Source: Deltaproteobacteria bacterium
GTDB taxonomy: Bacteria > Desulfobacterota > Binatia > HRBIN30 > JACQVA1
DNA: 39,052 nucleotides
NCBI GenBank assembly: GCA_016210005.1
Contig: JACQVA010000068.1
Span: 1 to 39,052, forward strand
Direction: 5' to 3'
Part shown: one piece after another, positions 1 through 9,533 of the stretch
Numbering within the stretch: position 1 is the first letter of the stretch
Layout of the letters: every line of letters starts with the position of its first letter
Made by a program: the position numbers and the translations under genes
Notes under the pieces: model-generated
The model's input: only the letters and a program-made list of their open reading frames with translations
Told to the model about the DNA's origin: nothing
Database searches by the model: none

Positions 1-181
1 CACCGACGAGAAATGCGTCAATCGCCCACGTCAGCGGGAACTTCTTGATGTGCTCGCTCACGTCGAGTGTAGACCCGGCCGCACCCGTGAGCTGGTGCAC
101 GGCGACGCGCACCTCTTCCTGGTCCCGCTCGATCGATTGCAGGAGGTCCTCACGCTGTTCGGCGAAGTCAATCTTTTCCAC
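1..181 (-). CDS. YqjD/DUF3618-like helical membrane-associated protein (3' end outside window)
   Basis: Partial gene running off the left edge; about 60 codons are visible from a GTG start two bases after the stop of the upstream holin-like gene, so the two are probably translationally coupled. The visible N-terminus is a charged helix (EQREDLLQSIERDQEEVRVA) followed by VSEHIKKFPLTW and the beginning of a hydrophobic stretch. This layout resembles DUF3618/YqjD-type proteins, which are helical proteins anchored by one C-terminal membrane segment. The pairing with a YqjE-type holin-like gene supports this, since yqjD and yqjE are neighbours in enterobacteria. A diverged partial copy of the first 29 codons lies at 6870-6956. 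The family call is inference from pattern and context. Confidence 0.55.
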   Translation of the reverse strand, partial: MEKIDFAEQREDLLQSIERDQEEVRVAVHQLTGAAGSTLDVSEHIKKFPLTWAIDAFLVG

Positions 182-183
182 GG

Positions 184-621
184 TCAGTTCTTTCCTTCGG
201 CTGGTAACGGTTCACGCTGTCGTGTTGGCCCGTTGCCGTTCGGGCGCACCCGTGTCGGCGGCCGACTGTGTCGCATGGCGAGCGTGACGAGCCCGACCGC
301 ACCTGCCCCGTTGAGCAACCCGAAGGCGGCTAAACGAATGACCGGGCTGGCATCTGGGGCTACGAGCAGGACGAAGGCTCCCGCCCCGGCGAACCACGCC
401 GCCGTCGCCAAGACCATGCCGGCGCCGACCAATGCGGCACGCTCGATCGAACGCGAGAGCAGCTCTCGCCCTTCGAGCAGCGCCAAGTCGATCCGCTTGG
501 TGATCACACCTTGACTGCCGGCCACCAAATGCTCGATCGATGACGCCACGGACGATTCGTCGGTGAAGCTGTCGCCTCCGGCGCTGTCGCTGTTCGTCCC
601 TGATGGTTCTGCAAGTTCCAC
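184..621 (-). CDS. Phage-holin-3_6/YqjE-type small membrane protein
   Basis: A 145-residue protein with a charged N-terminal half (roughly 1-60, ending in a helix RIDLALLEGRELLSRSIERA) and two closely spaced hydrophobic helices at about 63-88 and 93-112, followed by a basic Pro/Arg-rich tail. Two transmembrane helices in a hairpin after an amphipathic N-terminus is the layout of the Phage_holin_3_6 (DUF1469, YqjE-like) family of inner-membrane proteins, whose function is poorly defined. The stop codon lies two bases upstream of the GTG of the DUF3618-like gene. A palindromic repeat copy sits about 100 bp upstream of the start. Family assignment rests on topology and neighbourhood. Confidence 0.65.
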   Translation of the reverse strand: MELAEPSGTNSDSAGGDSFTDESSVASSIEHLVAGSQGVITKRIDLALLEGRELLSRSIERAALVGAGMVLATAAWFAGAGAFVLLVAPDASPVIRLAAFGLLNGAGAVGLVTLAMRHSRPPTRVRPNGNGPTRQREPLPAEGKN

Positions 622-2958: not shown

Positions 2959-3963
2959 TCACTGGACGCGCAGCTCTACACGACGGTTCTGGGCTCGGCC
3001 GTCCGCGGTGTCGTTGGACGCCACCGGGCGCGATTCGCCGAACCCTTCAGTTGTAATGCGGTTGGCTGGAATCCCGTGTTTCACTAAATATTGCCGCACC
3101 GCATCGGCGCGGCGGTGCGACAACTTCTGATTGTAAGCGTCGCTCCCAACGCTGTCGGTGTGACCTTCCACAATGACCGCCACGCCGCCTTCCGCTTTGA
3201 GTGTCGCCACGGCCTCATCCAGGACCGGTGCGGCATCGGGCCGGATGGTCGACTTGTCGAAATCGAAGTGGACGCTGCGCAGGACGATCTTCTTCTTGAC
3301 CGGCGCTGGTGGTGGCGCGGGCGCCTGCGCCACCGGCGGCGGAGGTGGGGGTGCTGGCGCTGCCACTGGTCCGTTGAAGGCGTATTTCAAGCCGACTCCA
3401 GCGGTCGCCCAGCGCGCGTCGGCAGGGCCTTGTTCATCGGCGACCTGCCCGGCCAGGAATGTCGGGCGCGGCGACATGTAAGCGCGGTTCCACCGACCAA
3501 ACAGACCGATCGCGAACTCAGGCGTGACATTGAAGTCGATGCCGCCACCGACTGAGAAGCCCGGTGCTGTGTGGTTGAGTCGTCCGCTCAGACCGGTGAA
3601 GACACCGCCTTGACCGGTGCCGTACAGCTCTACGAACTCGCCCAGCGGCAGTGACAGCCGCGGCCCGATGGTGCCCCCGAGCAGCGTGGTGGTCCGGTTC
3701 TCATGCGCGAAGCCGCGGTGGTCGTTGTCCGGGCTCTGGAAGGTAAAGTGGAGCTGGCCTTGCATCCCGAGATAGTCATTGAACATGTAGCCCAGATACG
3801 GATTGGCGGTGCCGCCCTCTTGGACGTGCGCCCGATAGTTGCCATTGGTGGGCACGGAAGCGCCCAAGTCGATGCCGACGAATGGACCATCAACGGCGTG
3901 GGCAGATGAAACCGCCCACAGCACGAAAAGCGAACCCACCAAGACTGAACGTTTGCACATCAT
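2959..3963 (-). CDS. OmpA family outer membrane protein
   Basis: A 334-residue two-domain outer-membrane protein. A signal peptide ends near Ala23 (SSAHA). Residues 25-197 alternate polar and hydrophobic residues as in an eight-stranded OmpA-like barrel (FVGIDLGAS, NPYLGYMF, PRLSLPLGEFVELYG, AIGLFGRWN). A proline-rich linker at 200-222 joins a C-terminal OmpA peptidoglycan-binding domain (226-334) containing VHFDFDKSTIRPDA, EGHTDSVGSD (D270) and LSHRRADAV (R285), the residues that bind diaminopimelate. A strong AGGAGGG site precedes the ATG. It anchors the outer membrane to the cell wall. It is transcribed on its own toward the BON operon, with about 90 bp between them. Confidence 0.93.
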   Translation of the reverse strand: MMCKRSVLVGSLFVLWAVSSAHAVDGPFVGIDLGASVPTNGNYRAHVQEGGTANPYLGYMFNDYLGMQGQLHFTFQSPDNDHRGFAHENRTTTLLGGTIGPRLSLPLGEFVELYGTGQGGVFTGLSGRLNHTAPGFSVGGGIDFNVTPEFAIGLFGRWNRAYMSPRPTFLAGQVADEQGPADARWATAGVGLKYAFNGPVAAPAPPPPPPVAQAPAPPPAPVKKKIVLRSVHFDFDKSTIRPDAAPVLDEAVATLKAEGGVAVIVEGHTDSVGSDAYNQKLSHRRADAVRQYLVKHGIPANRITTEGFGESRPVASNDTADGRAQNRRVELRVQ

Positions 3964-5146: not shown

Positions 5147-5437
5147 TCAAGACAGCGCCCCGATGACCCGAAACGGGAAGCTGACAAGGGCCCACACCAG
5201 GGCGAAAGCACTGCCGACGATTCGAGGAGAAGTCTTGTCGCTCTCCGTCGTGGTGGTGGTTGTTACGGTGGTTGTGGCGGGACGTTGCGGCTGCGCCTCC
5301 TCGGTAGCAACCGCAGGAACCGACTCCTCAGTCGTAACCGTTTGCGTGGTCGCATGGCTCGCGCATCCCGCTGCCACGCAGAGCGTCAGCAGGCCGCTGA
5401 GCAACCCCACGGTCATCACTTTTGTTCTATGGTGCAT
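5147..5437 (-). CDS. Small lipoprotein with C-terminal membrane helix
   Basis: A 96-residue protein with signal sequence and lipobox VAAGC (Cys25), a Thr/Glu-rich low-complexity middle (about 29-65, including a run of threonines) and a C-terminal hydrophobic helix, SAFALVWALVSFPFRVIGAL. The combination of lipid anchor and C-terminal helix could tether it to both membranes or the same membrane twice. AGGAGGAG precedes the ATG. The start overlaps the 3' end of the frameshifted FecR-like gene by 11 bp. I do not recognise a family. Confidence 0.7.
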   Translation of the reverse strand: MHHRTKVMTVGLLSGLLTLCVAAGCASHATTQTVTTEESVPAVATEEAQPQRPATTTVTTTTTTESDKTSPRIVGSAFALVWALVSFPFRVIGALS

Positions 5438-6046
5438 GTTGTACTCCTCCTGCTACGTTGACCTGAACCGTTTCGGTGCCCTCGAGGATGATCTGCTGGT
5501 CCTCGGCGACGTCGGTCGTCTCCCCGGCGGCCGGCGCGACGGTCGCTGCTCCACCTCGGCGGGTGCTGAATGCCGTCGTGTTCTCGTCGATGTCGACGCG
5601 ATAGTAGCCAGCACGATCGATGGTGAACGCGGCATTCGGCGTATCAACCTCGATCGACTGGCCGCGGGGCAGCGCCTTCAGGTCGAGGGCGGCATGCCCC
5701 CCGGTGATCCGGAACTGTGTGTAGCCGGGATCAAGCGACGTCAGGTCGATCTCCGTGGCGGCACCGGCGCGGACGAACGCCCCCGGCCCGATCTGCACCT
5801 CCAAGTTGGCACCGTCGCCCGCGTACAGGGAGTCGCCAGCGGCCAGCGCCGTGTTCACCTGCGCTGCGCTCCACTCCTCGGCACCCGGGCGCCAGAAAGA
5901 CACCGCGCCATCAATGAAGCGTCGCCGGTCACAGTGGGACCGCTGCGGGTTGCGTTCTGCGCTTTGGCGGTGCACGGCGTGGGTCCTAGCCCGGCAAGCG
6001 CGAACAGGCACGCGAGGACGGTTGGCAGGATGCGTCTTGAGATCAT
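5427..6046 (-). pseudogene. FecR-like (DUF6600-type) secreted protein, frameshifted and truncated
   Basis: The start frame (ATG at 6046) encodes a signal peptide MISRRILPTVLACLFALAGL and continues to about 5930, where the homologous frame changes. From there the other frame reads FIDGAVSFWRPGAEEWS, ALAAGDSLYAG, the FecR-type strand IEVDTPNAAFTIDRAGYYRV and DVAEDQQIIL, to a stop at 5427. One missing base within about 5918-5935 would join the two. Proteins with this FecR-like domain are usually several hundred residues longer; here the C-terminus runs out into the ribosome-binding site of the next gene, which suggests a deletion as well. FecR-like domains are periplasmic or surface sensory/structural domains. 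A sequencing error could explain the frameshift but not the short end. Confidence 0.7.
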
Positions 6047-6110
6047 CGTTGGTAACCTCCTGGTCGCGCCACAGCGCGGGTTGACCCATACATAGAAGAG
6101 GAACGGCAGG

Positions 6111-6162
6111 GCCGTAAGCTCGCATTGCTACGCCGCGTAGAACTACGCGGGTGTCTTACGCC
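6111..6162 (-). repeat. Palindromic repeat family, copy 3
   Basis: Outer arms GCCGTAAG and CTTACGCC enclose the core CCGCGTAG-AA-CTACGCGG, a perfect 8-bp stem. It has the AGAACT loop orientation like copy 2, opposite to copies 1, 4 and 5. It starts 65 bp upstream of the FecR-like gene start. Confidence 0.72.
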
Positions 6163-6324: not shown

Positions 6325-6534
6325 CTACGCGCGCGAATCGGCTTCCCGCGCGCTCAGCACAGTGCGGACCAGTTGGGTTGCCGAGGAGACGTTCATCTTC
6401 GAGAGCACCATGCGGCGGTGCCCTTCGACGGTACGGACACTGACATGCAAGGCCCACGCGATCTCCTTGGACGTGCTGCCCGCGATCAGTAGCTCCATCA
6501 CTTCACGCTGTCCGTCGTCACACGAGGCCGTCAT
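6325..6534 (-). CDS. Stand-alone LuxR-type HTH, truncated copy of the FixJ-like regulator
   Basis: A 69-residue frame that contains only the GerE/LuxR helix-turn-helix: QREVMELLIAG, SKEIAWALHVSVRTVEGHRR and the C-terminal QLVRTVLSAREADSRA. It corresponds to the last about 60 residues of the regulator at 971-1723; by eye the DNA is roughly 85% identical over about 190 bp. The receiver domain is absent. Its ATG overlaps the TGA of the lipoprotein gene as ATGA, so it could be translated by coupling. The reading frame is intact despite divergence, which suggests either selection or chance. It may be a degraded duplicate or a functional single-domain DNA-binding protein; I cannot decide. Confidence 0.5.
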   Translation of the reverse strand: MTASCDDGQREVMELLIAGSTSKEIAWALHVSVRTVEGHRRMVLSKMNVSSATQLVRTVLSAREADSRA

Positions 6535-6776
6535 TCCGTTGCACGATCGACGGCGCGGCCCGCCTTCTCGACCGGGCCCTTCGGGTCCAAGGTGTCCGAA
6601 ACCTTGTCCTTGGCATTGTCGATTGCTTCTCCCACCTTCTCGGCGGGGCCCTTGTCCGGACAGCCGGCGAGGCCGAGAGTCACGGCGAGGGCGAGTCCTG
6701 TCACCAAATGCGTCGCCAATCGACGCGCGTTCATCCTGGGCGTTGCGGTCTTGGTCGTGGTTTCCAGCTTCTTCAT
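6531..6776 (-). CDS. Small lipoprotein with helical repeat region
   Basis: An 81-residue protein with a basic N-terminus, a hydrophobic helix and lipobox LAGC (Cys39), followed by a charged helical stretch with quasi-repeats PAEKVGEAIDNAKDKVSDTL and PVEKAGRAVDRATE. Such short lipoproteins with EKxGxAIDxAxDK repeats are common in stress clusters; function unknown. The open frame extends upstream into a fragment of the DUF3618-like gene, but an internal GGAGCG site just before the ATG at 6776 supports the shorter start. It is followed by the LuxR HTH fragment with an ATGA overlap. Confidence 0.72.
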   Translation of the reverse strand: MKKLETTTKTATPRMNARRLATHLVTGLALAVTLGLAGCPDKGPAEKVGEAIDNAKDKVSDTLDPKGPVEKAGRAVDRATE

Positions 6777-6869
6777 GATCGCTCCTTCCATGGCTCCGAG
6801 CGGATGAGTGCACACCGATACCGCCCGAGGTTCAGGTGCCGGGTCCGTTGGCGGGCGCGGCGGATTGTC

Positions 6870-6956
6870 GTGCACGGCGACGCGCACCTCTTCGTGATCC
6901 CTCTCGATCGATTGCAAGAGGTCCTCACGCTGTTCGGTGAAGTCGGTCTTGTCCAC
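6870..6956 (-). pseudogene. 5' fragment of a DUF3618-like gene
   Basis: The first 29 codons (GTG start) repeat the N-terminus of the gene at 1-181: EQREDLLQSIERDHEEVRVA here against EQREDLLQSIERDQEEVRVA there. Similarity also covers about 20 bp of leader, and stops abruptly after the VAVH codons. The remaining frame (NPPRPPTDPAPEP) is unrelated and runs in frame into the small lipoprotein. It is a truncated duplicate. Confidence 0.7.
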
Positions 6957-7033: not shown

Positions 7034-8785
7034 TCACTGCCGCACGCGTCCCTGCAGAATCGTATTCTCGATCGTCGGGATCAGGTCCTGGATGATCGAG
7101 TCCTCGTGGCGTCCCGAAGTCGGGTTGATCAGATCGGGTACCTGCGATTCCGGGACGCGGTGATTAACGTAGAACGACGCCTTGCGGCCGCCGGCACCGG
7201 GCAGGACGGCGACGAACATGTTCTGGACCTGATTCGCGAGAATCAGTAAATCGAGCAGAGCGCCGAGCTGCTCAAAGTCCTCCGGCGCCTGGCCGTAGCC
7301 GCCGAGGATGTAAACGATCGGGAAGCTGCGGTTGGTGTGAAAGTATGCCGGGGGTCGATAGATGAGCACCGGCTGTCCCGGTGCGGTGCCGCTCCCCGTG
7401 CGCAGTGCGGGTGAGGTGATGTGTGTCTTCATGATGTCGCCACGCGGATCGGGATCGGTGATGCTGAGGTCGCCCGGCCCGTCGAACCCATTCGGGAAGC
7501 TCGAATCCATGTAGCTGATCATCGCCAGCAGCCGTTGCCAGATCACCACCGTTCCGCAGATGTCGCCGTTGAGCAACTTGTCTCGCGTGTCGTCGGCTTC
7601 GGGAATCCCAACGTGCCCGCCGACGTAGCGGATCAGCAGATACTGCTGCGGTAGCTTGGTAATGGCGACACAATTGCTGGGGAAGTCGTTCCGCGTATCC
7701 ACTGTCAGCCCCTTGGACTCGAGCATCGCAACGAAATTGTCGTAGTGCTTGCCGAAGCCGAACTGGTCTTCGGTGCCGACATCCATGTAGATGCGCTGCG
7801 TGCCGACGTCCGCCGCCGAGCGCGCTTCCAGCCGGGTCAGCGGGTCTTCGGCCAACCAGTTCGCCCGATCGGGGTCGTAGTCGCATTGGCCGTTGCCCTC
7901 GCGGTAGTCGCCGGTGTCGGCCACGCCATCGAGACCGACGTCACTGAAGGTCTCGCCGAGCTCCGGCTCGTACACGAGATTGCCGTTCGTATCAGTGAAG
8001 GGCTCGGAGAGGTTCACGACGATGCCATCGCCGACGTCGTAGACCCCGTCGCCGTTCAGGTCAGCGAGCATGCGCCCGCCGACATCCACGCCGGTGGCGT
8101 CACTCGCGATGCGTGGCAATGCTCCCCCCGCGAGTAACAGGACATCGACCGGCTGGGTTGCCGTCTCGGTCGTCTGACGCACGCCGTCTTGCTTGGCATC
8201 GCCGCCATCGAGGAACCCACGCCGGTTCGCCGGCAGCGTGAAGCTCCCAAACGCATCGTCGCGCAGGATGTGTGCCGGTTCGGAATCCATCGCCAGATAC
8301 TGCCGCGAGGGATCCGGATGGTGCAGGAAGGGATCGCCGAAGGCGATGACCAGGTCCTTGACCATCGACAGGCGCGTGTCGCGTCCGGGATAGGGCGCTT
8401 GGTGGTCGAAGGTGAAATCATCGCCGACATTGAGCGGAATGATCGTTTGAGATTTCACTTCGAGGTTGTCGTTCACCATATCCCGCAGGAGTTGCCGCAT
8501 ATCGACGGGGCCACCGAGGGCAGCGATCGTACCGAACAAGTCGGCGTGCTTCGTGCCCAGGTTCATCGCGCCGTATGCGCCCATCGATACGCCGGCGACC
8601 GCACGGAACTGCCGGTGCGCTTGCAACGAGCCGCCCGTCGTTGGGGTCGTGTCGGGGCCGCTACCGCCGTTGCCGCCGCACGCGGTCAGCACGGCCAGAG
8701 CGCACGCCCCTGTAAGCCACGTGCACCATCGCCAGAACGCGACTCCGTGCGCCAATTGGTGTGCGCCCGCAGTGGGTTCCTTCAT
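7034..8785 (-). CDS. Secreted esterase lipoprotein with apparent circularly permuted alpha/beta hydrolase domain
   Basis: A 583-residue exported protein with lipobox LTAC (Cys36) and a Gly/Thr linker. The nucleophile elbow GVSMG (Ser67) with YGAMNLGTKHADLFGTIAAL comes first, followed by a strand-acid segment IYMDVGTEDQFGF (330-344) and a likely catalytic His391 (GGHVG). The segment that normally precedes the nucleophile in esterase-D-type enzymes comes last: VLIYRPPAYF (473-482), FPIVYILGGYGQAPEDF (488-504), FVAVLPGAGG, SFYVN, and RHEDSIIQDLIPTIEN (559-574). Residues 241-310 carry Asp/Asn-rich calcium-loop-like motifs (DLNGDGVYDVGD, DTNGN). GGAGG precedes the ATG. Hydrolase family is well supported; substrate unknown. 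Confidence 0.82.
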   Translation of the reverse strand: MKEPTAGAHQLAHGVAFWRWCTWLTGACALAVLTACGGNGGSGPDTTPTTGGSLQAHRQFRAVAGVSMGAYGAMNLGTKHADLFGTIAALGGPVDMRQLLRDMVNDNLEVKSQTIIPLNVGDDFTFDHQAPYPGRDTRLSMVKDLVIAFGDPFLHHPDPSRQYLAMDSEPAHILRDDAFGSFTLPANRRGFLDGGDAKQDGVRQTTETATQPVDVLLLAGGALPRIASDATGVDVGGRMLADLNGDGVYDVGDGIVVNLSEPFTDTNGNLVYEPELGETFSDVGLDGVADTGDYREGNGQCDYDPDRANWLAEDPLTRLEARSAADVGTQRIYMDVGTEDQFGFGKHYDNFVAMLESKGLTVDTRNDFPSNCVAITKLPQQYLLIRYVGGHVGIPEADDTRDKLLNGDICGTVVIWQRLLAMISYMDSSFPNGFDGPGDLSITDPDPRGDIMKTHITSPALRTGSGTAPGQPVLIYRPPAYFHTNRSFPIVYILGGYGQAPEDFEQLGALLDLLILANQVQNMFVAVLPGAGGRKASFYVNHRVPESQVPDLINPTSGRHEDSIIQDLIPTIENTILQGRVRQ

Positions 8786-8987
8786 GAATCAATCCTCCGT
8801 TCGTTGAGTCGGTGTCCCGGAAATCGGTTCGGGCAAAACTTCACGCGCACTTCGCACCGCGGTGTTTTCCTCCAGCAGCCTGTCGGACTTGGCAGTCACC
8901 AGCGACCCAACACGTCCGCCGGAAGCCTCTGGAGTGCGGGCGGGGAGCGGACCATAGAAATGACGCCGACCGCAGGTCCCAGGCGAA

Positions 8988-9533
8988 TCACTGCGGCGTT
9001 AGCACCGGAGTGTCGGTGCGTGTTTCACCGGCTGTTGCGTGACTCTTTGTCGTCGTCCGCTTCTTGGTCGGTTTCCGGCGGCGTGTCGTTTCAATCTTGA
9101 CCTTTGCCACGCCTTTCTTCGACATCCCGATCTGTCGGGCGGCGGCGCGCGACAGATCGATCTTCCGCCCCTTCGCATACGGACCACGATCGTTGATCGT
9201 GACCTTCACCGATTTTCCGGTCTTCAGGTTGGTGACCACAGCCTTGCTGCCCAGGGGCAATGTCGGATGTGCCGCGGTGAGCTTGTTCTGATCGAATGTT
9301 TCTCCACTAGCGGTCTCTTTCCCGTCTTGCGCTGGCCCGTACCAGGAGGCGTTTCCGACCTCCTTTACCTTCGGCCCCTCAGCATTGGGCACTTCCTCCT
9401 TCGCCTGTGGCGCCACCACGGGCGGCGGAGGAGTCTCCTTCCGGCCGATCGGCAGCGCACAGCCCGGCAACAGCAACGCAAGCATTGCTCCTCCGATTCC
9501 AAACACGACAAGTAATTGACGAGAATGCTTCAT
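8988..9533 (-). CDS. rlpA: RlpA family septal ring lytic transglycosylase-like lipoprotein
   Basis: A 181-residue lipoprotein: signal peptide, lipobox LLPGC (Cys25), a Pro/Glu-rich spacer, then a double-psi beta-barrel RlpA domain at about 58-148. Typical RlpA motifs are visible: GNASWYGP, DGKETASGETFDQ, LTAAHPTLPLGS, VTNLKTGKSVKVTINDRGPY and GRKIDLSRAAARQIGM. RlpA proteins cleave glycan strands lacking stem peptides at the septum or act as envelope proteins. The C-terminus is a Lys/Arg/Thr-rich tail rather than a SPOR domain, so septal targeting by SPOR is not available. It is transcribed alone between two unrelated genes. Confidence 0.9.
   Translation of the reverse strand: MKHSRQLLVVFGIGGAMLALLLPGCALPIGRKETPPPPVVAPQAKEEVPNAEGPKVKEVGNASWYGPAQDGKETASGETFDQNKLTAAHPTLPLGSKAVVTNLKTGKSVKVTINDRGPYAKGRKIDLSRAAARQIGMSKKGVAKVKIETTRRRKPTKKRTTTKSHATAGETRTDTPVLTPQ

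Follow-up and report, generated by a model that had tools for sequence, protein, structure and literature searches.

Extracellular PHA depolymerases present two types of catalytic domain, and the type-2 domain is described as having its oxyanion hole C-terminal to the catalytic triad (PMC2666664). For the type-2 PHB depolymerase of Penicillium funiculosum (PDB entry 2D80), the published residue order is Ser39, Asp121, His155 and, last, the oxyanion Cys250 (PMC5445757). According to a survey of alpha/beta hydrolases, permuted edge strands exist elsewhere in the superfamily, and in SE_1780 (3fle) the strands beta1 and beta2 are both permuted and reversed (PMC11878206). The family described here differs from SE_1780, since the whole first half of its fold is moved and is not reversed. 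Its linear relatives belong to PF00756, the sequence family of esterase D / S-formylglutathione hydrolase, of the CE1 feruloyl and acetyl esterases and of the soil esterase 8z91. The structure 2D80 is said to have been presented by Hisano in 2006 as a 'circularly permuted variant' of the fold. Because type 2 and 2D80 have the order that we found, the permuted topology itself was already known: the first-pass annotation of our locus had called it a rare topology, which it is, but one with a precedent. For PF00756 esterases, we found no report of a permuted member among the open-licence PMC papers listed by our searches.

The window, that is the whole stretch of 39,052 nucleotides which was analysed, encodes a protein of 583 amino acids whose parts are collected in Table 1. 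All results considered jointly, we are highly confident that it is a circularly permuted serine esterase of the PF00756 group, which is secreted and probably anchored to lipid, with a permutation that is ancestral and most likely separate from that of type 2. The landmarks of the first-pass annotation were found where it had placed them: the ORF, the lipobox LTAC36, GVS67MG, GGH391, FPIVYILGGYGQ (488-499), FVAVLPGAGG and SIIQDLIPTIEN. Its catalytic Asp337 had to be replaced, residue 337 being a Gly: it is D340, of the motif DVGTED340, that aligns with the Asp conserved among linear relatives. S67 likewise aligns with linear relatives, and D340 and H391 are invariant within the permuted family alignments. 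H391 has no clean alignment to the linear rows, in which the His piece is misaligned: in alignment A5 the long C-terminal halves of linear esterases shifted their His region onto wrong columns, A6 pulled the tails, and for A7 the rows were trimmed and the part of the linear proteins after the Asp omitted (A7 includes halves from 14 of 39 linear ORFs with usable boundary; its N-half row L106 has a stray letter in the first column).

Table 1. Parts of the permuted esterase, in positions of the window and residues of the encoded protein
Feature	Coordinates	Strand	Basis
Circularly permuted PF00756-type esterase, 583 aa + stop	7034..8785	-	ATG start
Lipoprotein signal peptide, lipobox LTAC with Cys36	8678..8785	-	inspection of sequence
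Strand beta5 with the nucleophile elbow GVS67MG, moved to the N-terminal side (residues 54-98; PF00756 positions 110-154)	8492..8626	-	
Long acidic insertion (residues about 110-303) containing EF-hand-like D-x-N-x-D-G stretches	7877..8458	-	alignment and structure model; calcium and cap readings by eye
Catalytic Asp340 (DVGTED) to His391 (GGH)	7613..7768	-	alignment and conservation
Initial strands of the hydrolase fold, moved to the C-terminal side (residues 448-583)	7037..7444	-	profile matches
LGGYGQ (494-499), equivalent to the LLHG turn at the oxyanion hole in linear esterases	7289..7306	-	alignment

Searched against Pfam at E up to 1, the protein matches PF00756 (Esterase) alone, in two stretches, of which residues 54-98 are the best; the protein scores 55.7 bits, above the gathering cut-off of 22. 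Such an annotation, made of two partial PF00756 matches, conceals the rearrangement. With the PF00756 esterases the protein has in common GxSxG, DxGxxD, GGH, the oxyanion turn and the IxxDLIPxIE helix; what distinguishes it from them is the permuted order, the long acidic insertion and the lipoprotein signal. Judged by eye, the insertion sits after strand beta6, a position where caps and lids are found, and its D-x-N-x-D-G stretches may be calcium sites. On another contig of the same genome (G000:C158, 48001-49860; L004, L005), a frame of 3029 amino acids has stretches resembling this insertion, with 31-33% identity to residues about 170-308.

The rearranged order was characterized with profiles built from linear esterases of the same phylum (A3, six proteins) and from nine linear esterases (lin9). 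Both match the protein in three pieces, which come in the order nucleophile, Asp, first strands: positions 163-215 of lin9 fall on residues 57-109, positions 282-330 on 309-357 and positions 33-158 on 448-576. The best single alignment of the native mature chain to the linear profile scores 33.7 bits, and the score rises to 74.6 bits when the chain is rotated at any point between about residues 184 and 434. The rotated chain then forms one alignment from profile positions 33 to 215 which spans the joined ends, with a few extra residues at the joint. Since the maximum for 200 shuffled sequences in the same test is 3.9 bits, the rearranged order lies far beyond chance. The relation to linear esterases was also seen at the family level: the permuted family profile matches the linear esterase profile with a probability of 99.5% over 122 columns, and in the PDB it finds 8z91, a linear esterase, as its best relative (E 2.3e-30), the C-terminal piece lying on the N-terminus of 8z91. 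The closest linear relatives that we found are esterases of the same phylum (L059-L062, L038, L040, L042, L054 and L113), six of which share 30% identity with the C-terminal piece over 122 aligned columns; they have the linear order, do not have the long insertion and their domain is of about 340-400 amino acids.

The family extends over three classes of one phylum. In the window's class, clear copies are present in 11 of 148 genomes, its own included (9 with a full-length copy and 2 with a copy truncated where the contig ends); a further genome, G014, has a short piece only. The second class gave a full copy in 1 of 12 genomes, and the third class six copies in 5 of 23 genomes, with 35-37% identity to the window protein. 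Two phylum searches were made, each on 395 genomes from a larger group; the first found permuted copies in 6 of 395 (G000, G020, G421, G376, G435 and G507). Plasmid records contained no relative of the query protein P0001 at E 1e-3, and a contig scan from one protein returned a single locus. One family member, 54% identical, is L007 (CAMBZJ010000037.1), whose record is labelled as a Klebsiella pneumoniae MAG, a label that looks wrong. In none of the 17 distinct family ORFs, the window's included, are the strands in linear order: all 17 are permuted. The Asp piece is below the threshold in two of them (L090 and L091), and L020 is cut at a contig end; in L091, the TAG reported inside the match is the ORF's own stop, past which the match runs slightly. 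A second copy of any piece is absent from all 17 at the thresholds used; the signs against a permutation which the first-pass annotation had named beforehand, such as a second complete hydrolase with its own nucleophile, did not appear.

Could the order result from misassembly, or from a chimeric ORF? The genome is a draft of 268 contigs, and it does contain a broken paralog on another contig (C27, L006, 8101-9170). This paralog consists of two matches in different frames, 8101-8472 (82% identical) and 8466-9170 (78% identical), has GVSMR in place of the nucleophile motif GVSMG and loses the esterase sequence after about residue 393, so that the last third is missing; next to it comes a gene related to that at 6531-6956 of the window. 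The arrangement suggests that a block was duplicated and suffered a deletion inside it. Against an artefact, the same order is present in other genomes of three classes, for example on contigs of 605, 173 and 36 kb, and we give this explanation almost no credence. The recurrence of the order in 17 of 17 ORFs from three classes, with no second copies, indicates that the permutation is old and heritable, and we conclude that it is ancestral to the family.

Another explanation would be that of two separate domains: a nucleophile-bearing N-terminal hydrolase followed by an unrelated or incomplete second one. Some 340 residues separate the main pieces, as could be the case in such a protein, and our first AlphaFold2 prediction, based on 9 close relatives, was unreadable and was discarded (pLDDT 41). 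A two-domain protein is nevertheless very improbable in view of the profile results, in which, for 17 of 17 ORFs, no piece occurs more than once and the pieces complement one another within a single linear model, while the rotated chain aligns through the joint, and of a second AlphaFold2 model, in which the chain is predicted to lie end to end on one 318-residue domain. This model, the structure prediction that the first-pass annotation had called for, covers residues 55-583 and used 42 rows: 20 permuted proteins, full or partial, and 22 halves of linear esterases. It reached a pLDDT of 70.3 and a pTM of 0.70, with 158 of 529 residues at 90 or above and 124 of 529 below 50; residues about 95-304 are mostly of low confidence.

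Comparing the second model with solved structures by VIA-align, we found that, among the 50 entries listed, the whole chain aligned only with the PHB depolymerase entries 2D80 and 2D81 (for 2D80, Z 15.5 over 242 residues at 4.0 Å, model 3..526 on chain 29..338). The linear esterases among these 50 entries cover only about 1..382 or 390..529 of the model: its N-terminal 382 residues match linear C-terminal halves (8z91, Z 10.2; 1jt2, Z 8.3) and its last 140 residues a linear N-terminal half (6rzn, Z 8.3). Prolyl oligopeptidases, which are also among the structural matches, correspond to no more than the C-terminal half of the fold. Matches of linear enzymes to halves, together with a match of 2D80 to the whole chain, are expected of one domain whose chain is circularly permuted. 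Foldseek also gave 2D80 as the top match (E 1.4e-4, probability 0.99), with a poor superposition (TM 0.22 by query and 0.32 by target, rmsd 9.2 Å). That both halves would form one domain is the prediction of this model, which we count as support and not as proof, since the rows of linear halves assist the two halves separately and could bias the result towards the expected fold. Hydrolases of either order had been solved before the prediction network was trained, so the model is not fully independent. Along with the profile order in 17 of 17 ORFs and the rotation test, it sustains the circularly permuted secreted esterase initially proposed for this locus.

A tree was built from 17 permuted proteins and 14 linear ones, 6 of the latter represented by one half only; the two sets separate with 99% ultrafast bootstrap in the newick, as expected from one permutation event. 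The second-class copy (L055) lies inside the branch of the window's class, so a transfer is possible. In the first two classes, a Cys occupies the lipobox position in all 10 permuted proteins that have an aligned N-terminus; an eleventh, L034, is trimmed at this position in the alignment, and its ORF has no clear lipobox by eye. The permuted proteins of the third class have no lipobox by eye, and two of them (L058 and L089) present fibronectin type III domains in front, just above the Pfam cut-off, with L090 similar by eye. The signal peptide thus varies by branch and the permuted domain is common to all. A repeated domain (KRVLANKDVG..RWAI..ADGTVTGNVFR..GG.PAFIACDP; L147 5062-6636 and the N-terminus of L034/L155) fronts the permuted esterase in G111 and forms a separate adjoining gene in G020.

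The relation to type-2 PHA depolymerases is the point on which the history of the family depends. The similarities are of order and structure: the nucleophile comes before and the oxyanion hole after the triad, as in type 2, and 2D80 is the best structural match. It can therefore be argued that both groups descend from one ancestor that was already permuted, and that the family would be a very diverged branch of type 2: the cut and the order are identical, the whole-chain match with 2D80 (Z 15.5) was the best among the 50 entries listed, one short stretch around the nucleophile is common to both (in the PDB profile search, 2D80 is matched over 42-82 with an E of 1.6), and 9 of 14 members weakly match the type-1 PHA depolymerase model. 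These last matches, at E up to 1, are far under the cut-off of that model (best E 0.001) and lie over the nucleophile stretch in the 5 rows inspected (4 of 5 in one set, 1 elsewhere); they reflect a short common motif and say little. The profile affinities point away from such an ancestor. We aligned (A8) a set of 8 type-2 proteins, namely 1 from the same phylum and 7 from plasmids, chosen among 35 matching records; compared with their profile, the permuted family reached a probability of 9.9% over 51 columns around the nucleophile, and no profile relation was found beyond that stretch. The type-2 model NF050059 (e_dPHAscl_type2) was unmatched by 14 members at E up to 1 and by 5 of them at E up to 10, and at E up to 1e-6 it found nothing in the genome of the window; a search with it over 247 genomes found one with a type-2 protein.

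The linear relatives of the two groups are different as well. With the limit set at E 1, all 14 members of the permuted family match PF00756 versus 0 of 8 type-2 proteins, and for PF10503 the counts are 0 of 14 versus 6 of 8. In the PDB, the type-2 profile finds 2D80 (E 2.4e-84) and the linear feruloyl esterase 8iy8 (E 1.2e-10); 8z91, the closest solved relative of our family, is absent from its 6 matches at E up to 1. The oxyanion motif differs too: HGC is invariant in the 8 type-2 proteins, whereas the window has GGY, within GGYG, and its relatives GGY, LGY or PGY. Given these affinities, we regard a shared permuted ancestor as unlikely. By its sequence, the family sits with linear esterases like 8z91 and not with type 2, which suggests a second, parallel permutation; the likeliest history is that of two separate permutations at the same joint, in different linear branches.

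How the permutation occurred is a different question. Duplication followed by loss is the general expectation for circular permutations, and the first-pass annotation had read similar 'LQ..RQ' sequences at both ends of the protein as the scar of a tandem duplication. This resemblance is not above chance: the protein ends score 10, a value equalled or exceeded by 1209 of 2000 shuffles, and at the DNA level 268 of 2000 shuffles score at least as high as the real ends. In 12 family members, the mean for a protein's own ends is 11.2, against 10.7 for the ends of different members. As the ends are not alike above chance, for the protein in the window ORF and 12 members and for the DNA in the window ORF, they give no sign of a duplication scar.

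The genomic context was compared across 12 neighbourhoods and, from the window, its initial 20 kb (blastp at E 1e-8 with ORFs of at least 90 amino acids). No flanking ORF group was present in more than 3 of these 13 neighbourhoods, and the larger recurring groups are the esterase itself and its overlapping frames; with no conserved neighbour, the context gives no substrate. In the window, all on the minus strand, the gene at 8988-9533 encodes a lytic transglycosylase-like protein (DPBB_1, RlpA-type), that at 2959-3963 an OmpA-family barrel protein, and that at 5427-6125 has a weak FecR match below the Pfam cut-off.

Concerning the fold and its function, the permuted chain starts just before strand beta5 and the nucleophile elbow, continues through the Asp and His strands, and ends with the strands that come first in linear relatives and on which the turn of the oxyanion hole is located; a stretch around residues 430-450 connects what were the N- and C-termini, and both halves should fold as one domain. 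If they share this domain, Ser67, Asp340 and His391 would use the usual acyl-enzyme mechanism, with LGGYG as oxyanion hole. Catalytic activity, lipid anchoring and substrate are inferred: the conserved triad and oxyanion turn are best read as those of an active serine esterase predicted to work outside the cytoplasm, most members of the window's class are probably lipid-anchored, and a polysaccharide ester or a polyester is a plausible candidate substrate.

Together, these results make it likely that we are dealing with an undescribed family, in which a second independent permutation took place in the PF00756 branch, at the same joint as in type 2, and was kept across three classes. The joint in question connects the helix that follows strand beta4 to strand beta5. 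Few natural permutants of alpha/beta hydrolases turned up in our searches, and among those only type-2 PHB depolymerases have a whole half moved, with the same cut. If the second permutation is real, the beta4-helix/beta5 joint would be a hot spot for natural permutations in alpha/beta hydrolases, and a second case from another branch would make it testable whether this joint tolerates or favours new ends. The conserved linear and permuted relatives would constitute a set for studies of folding and activity.
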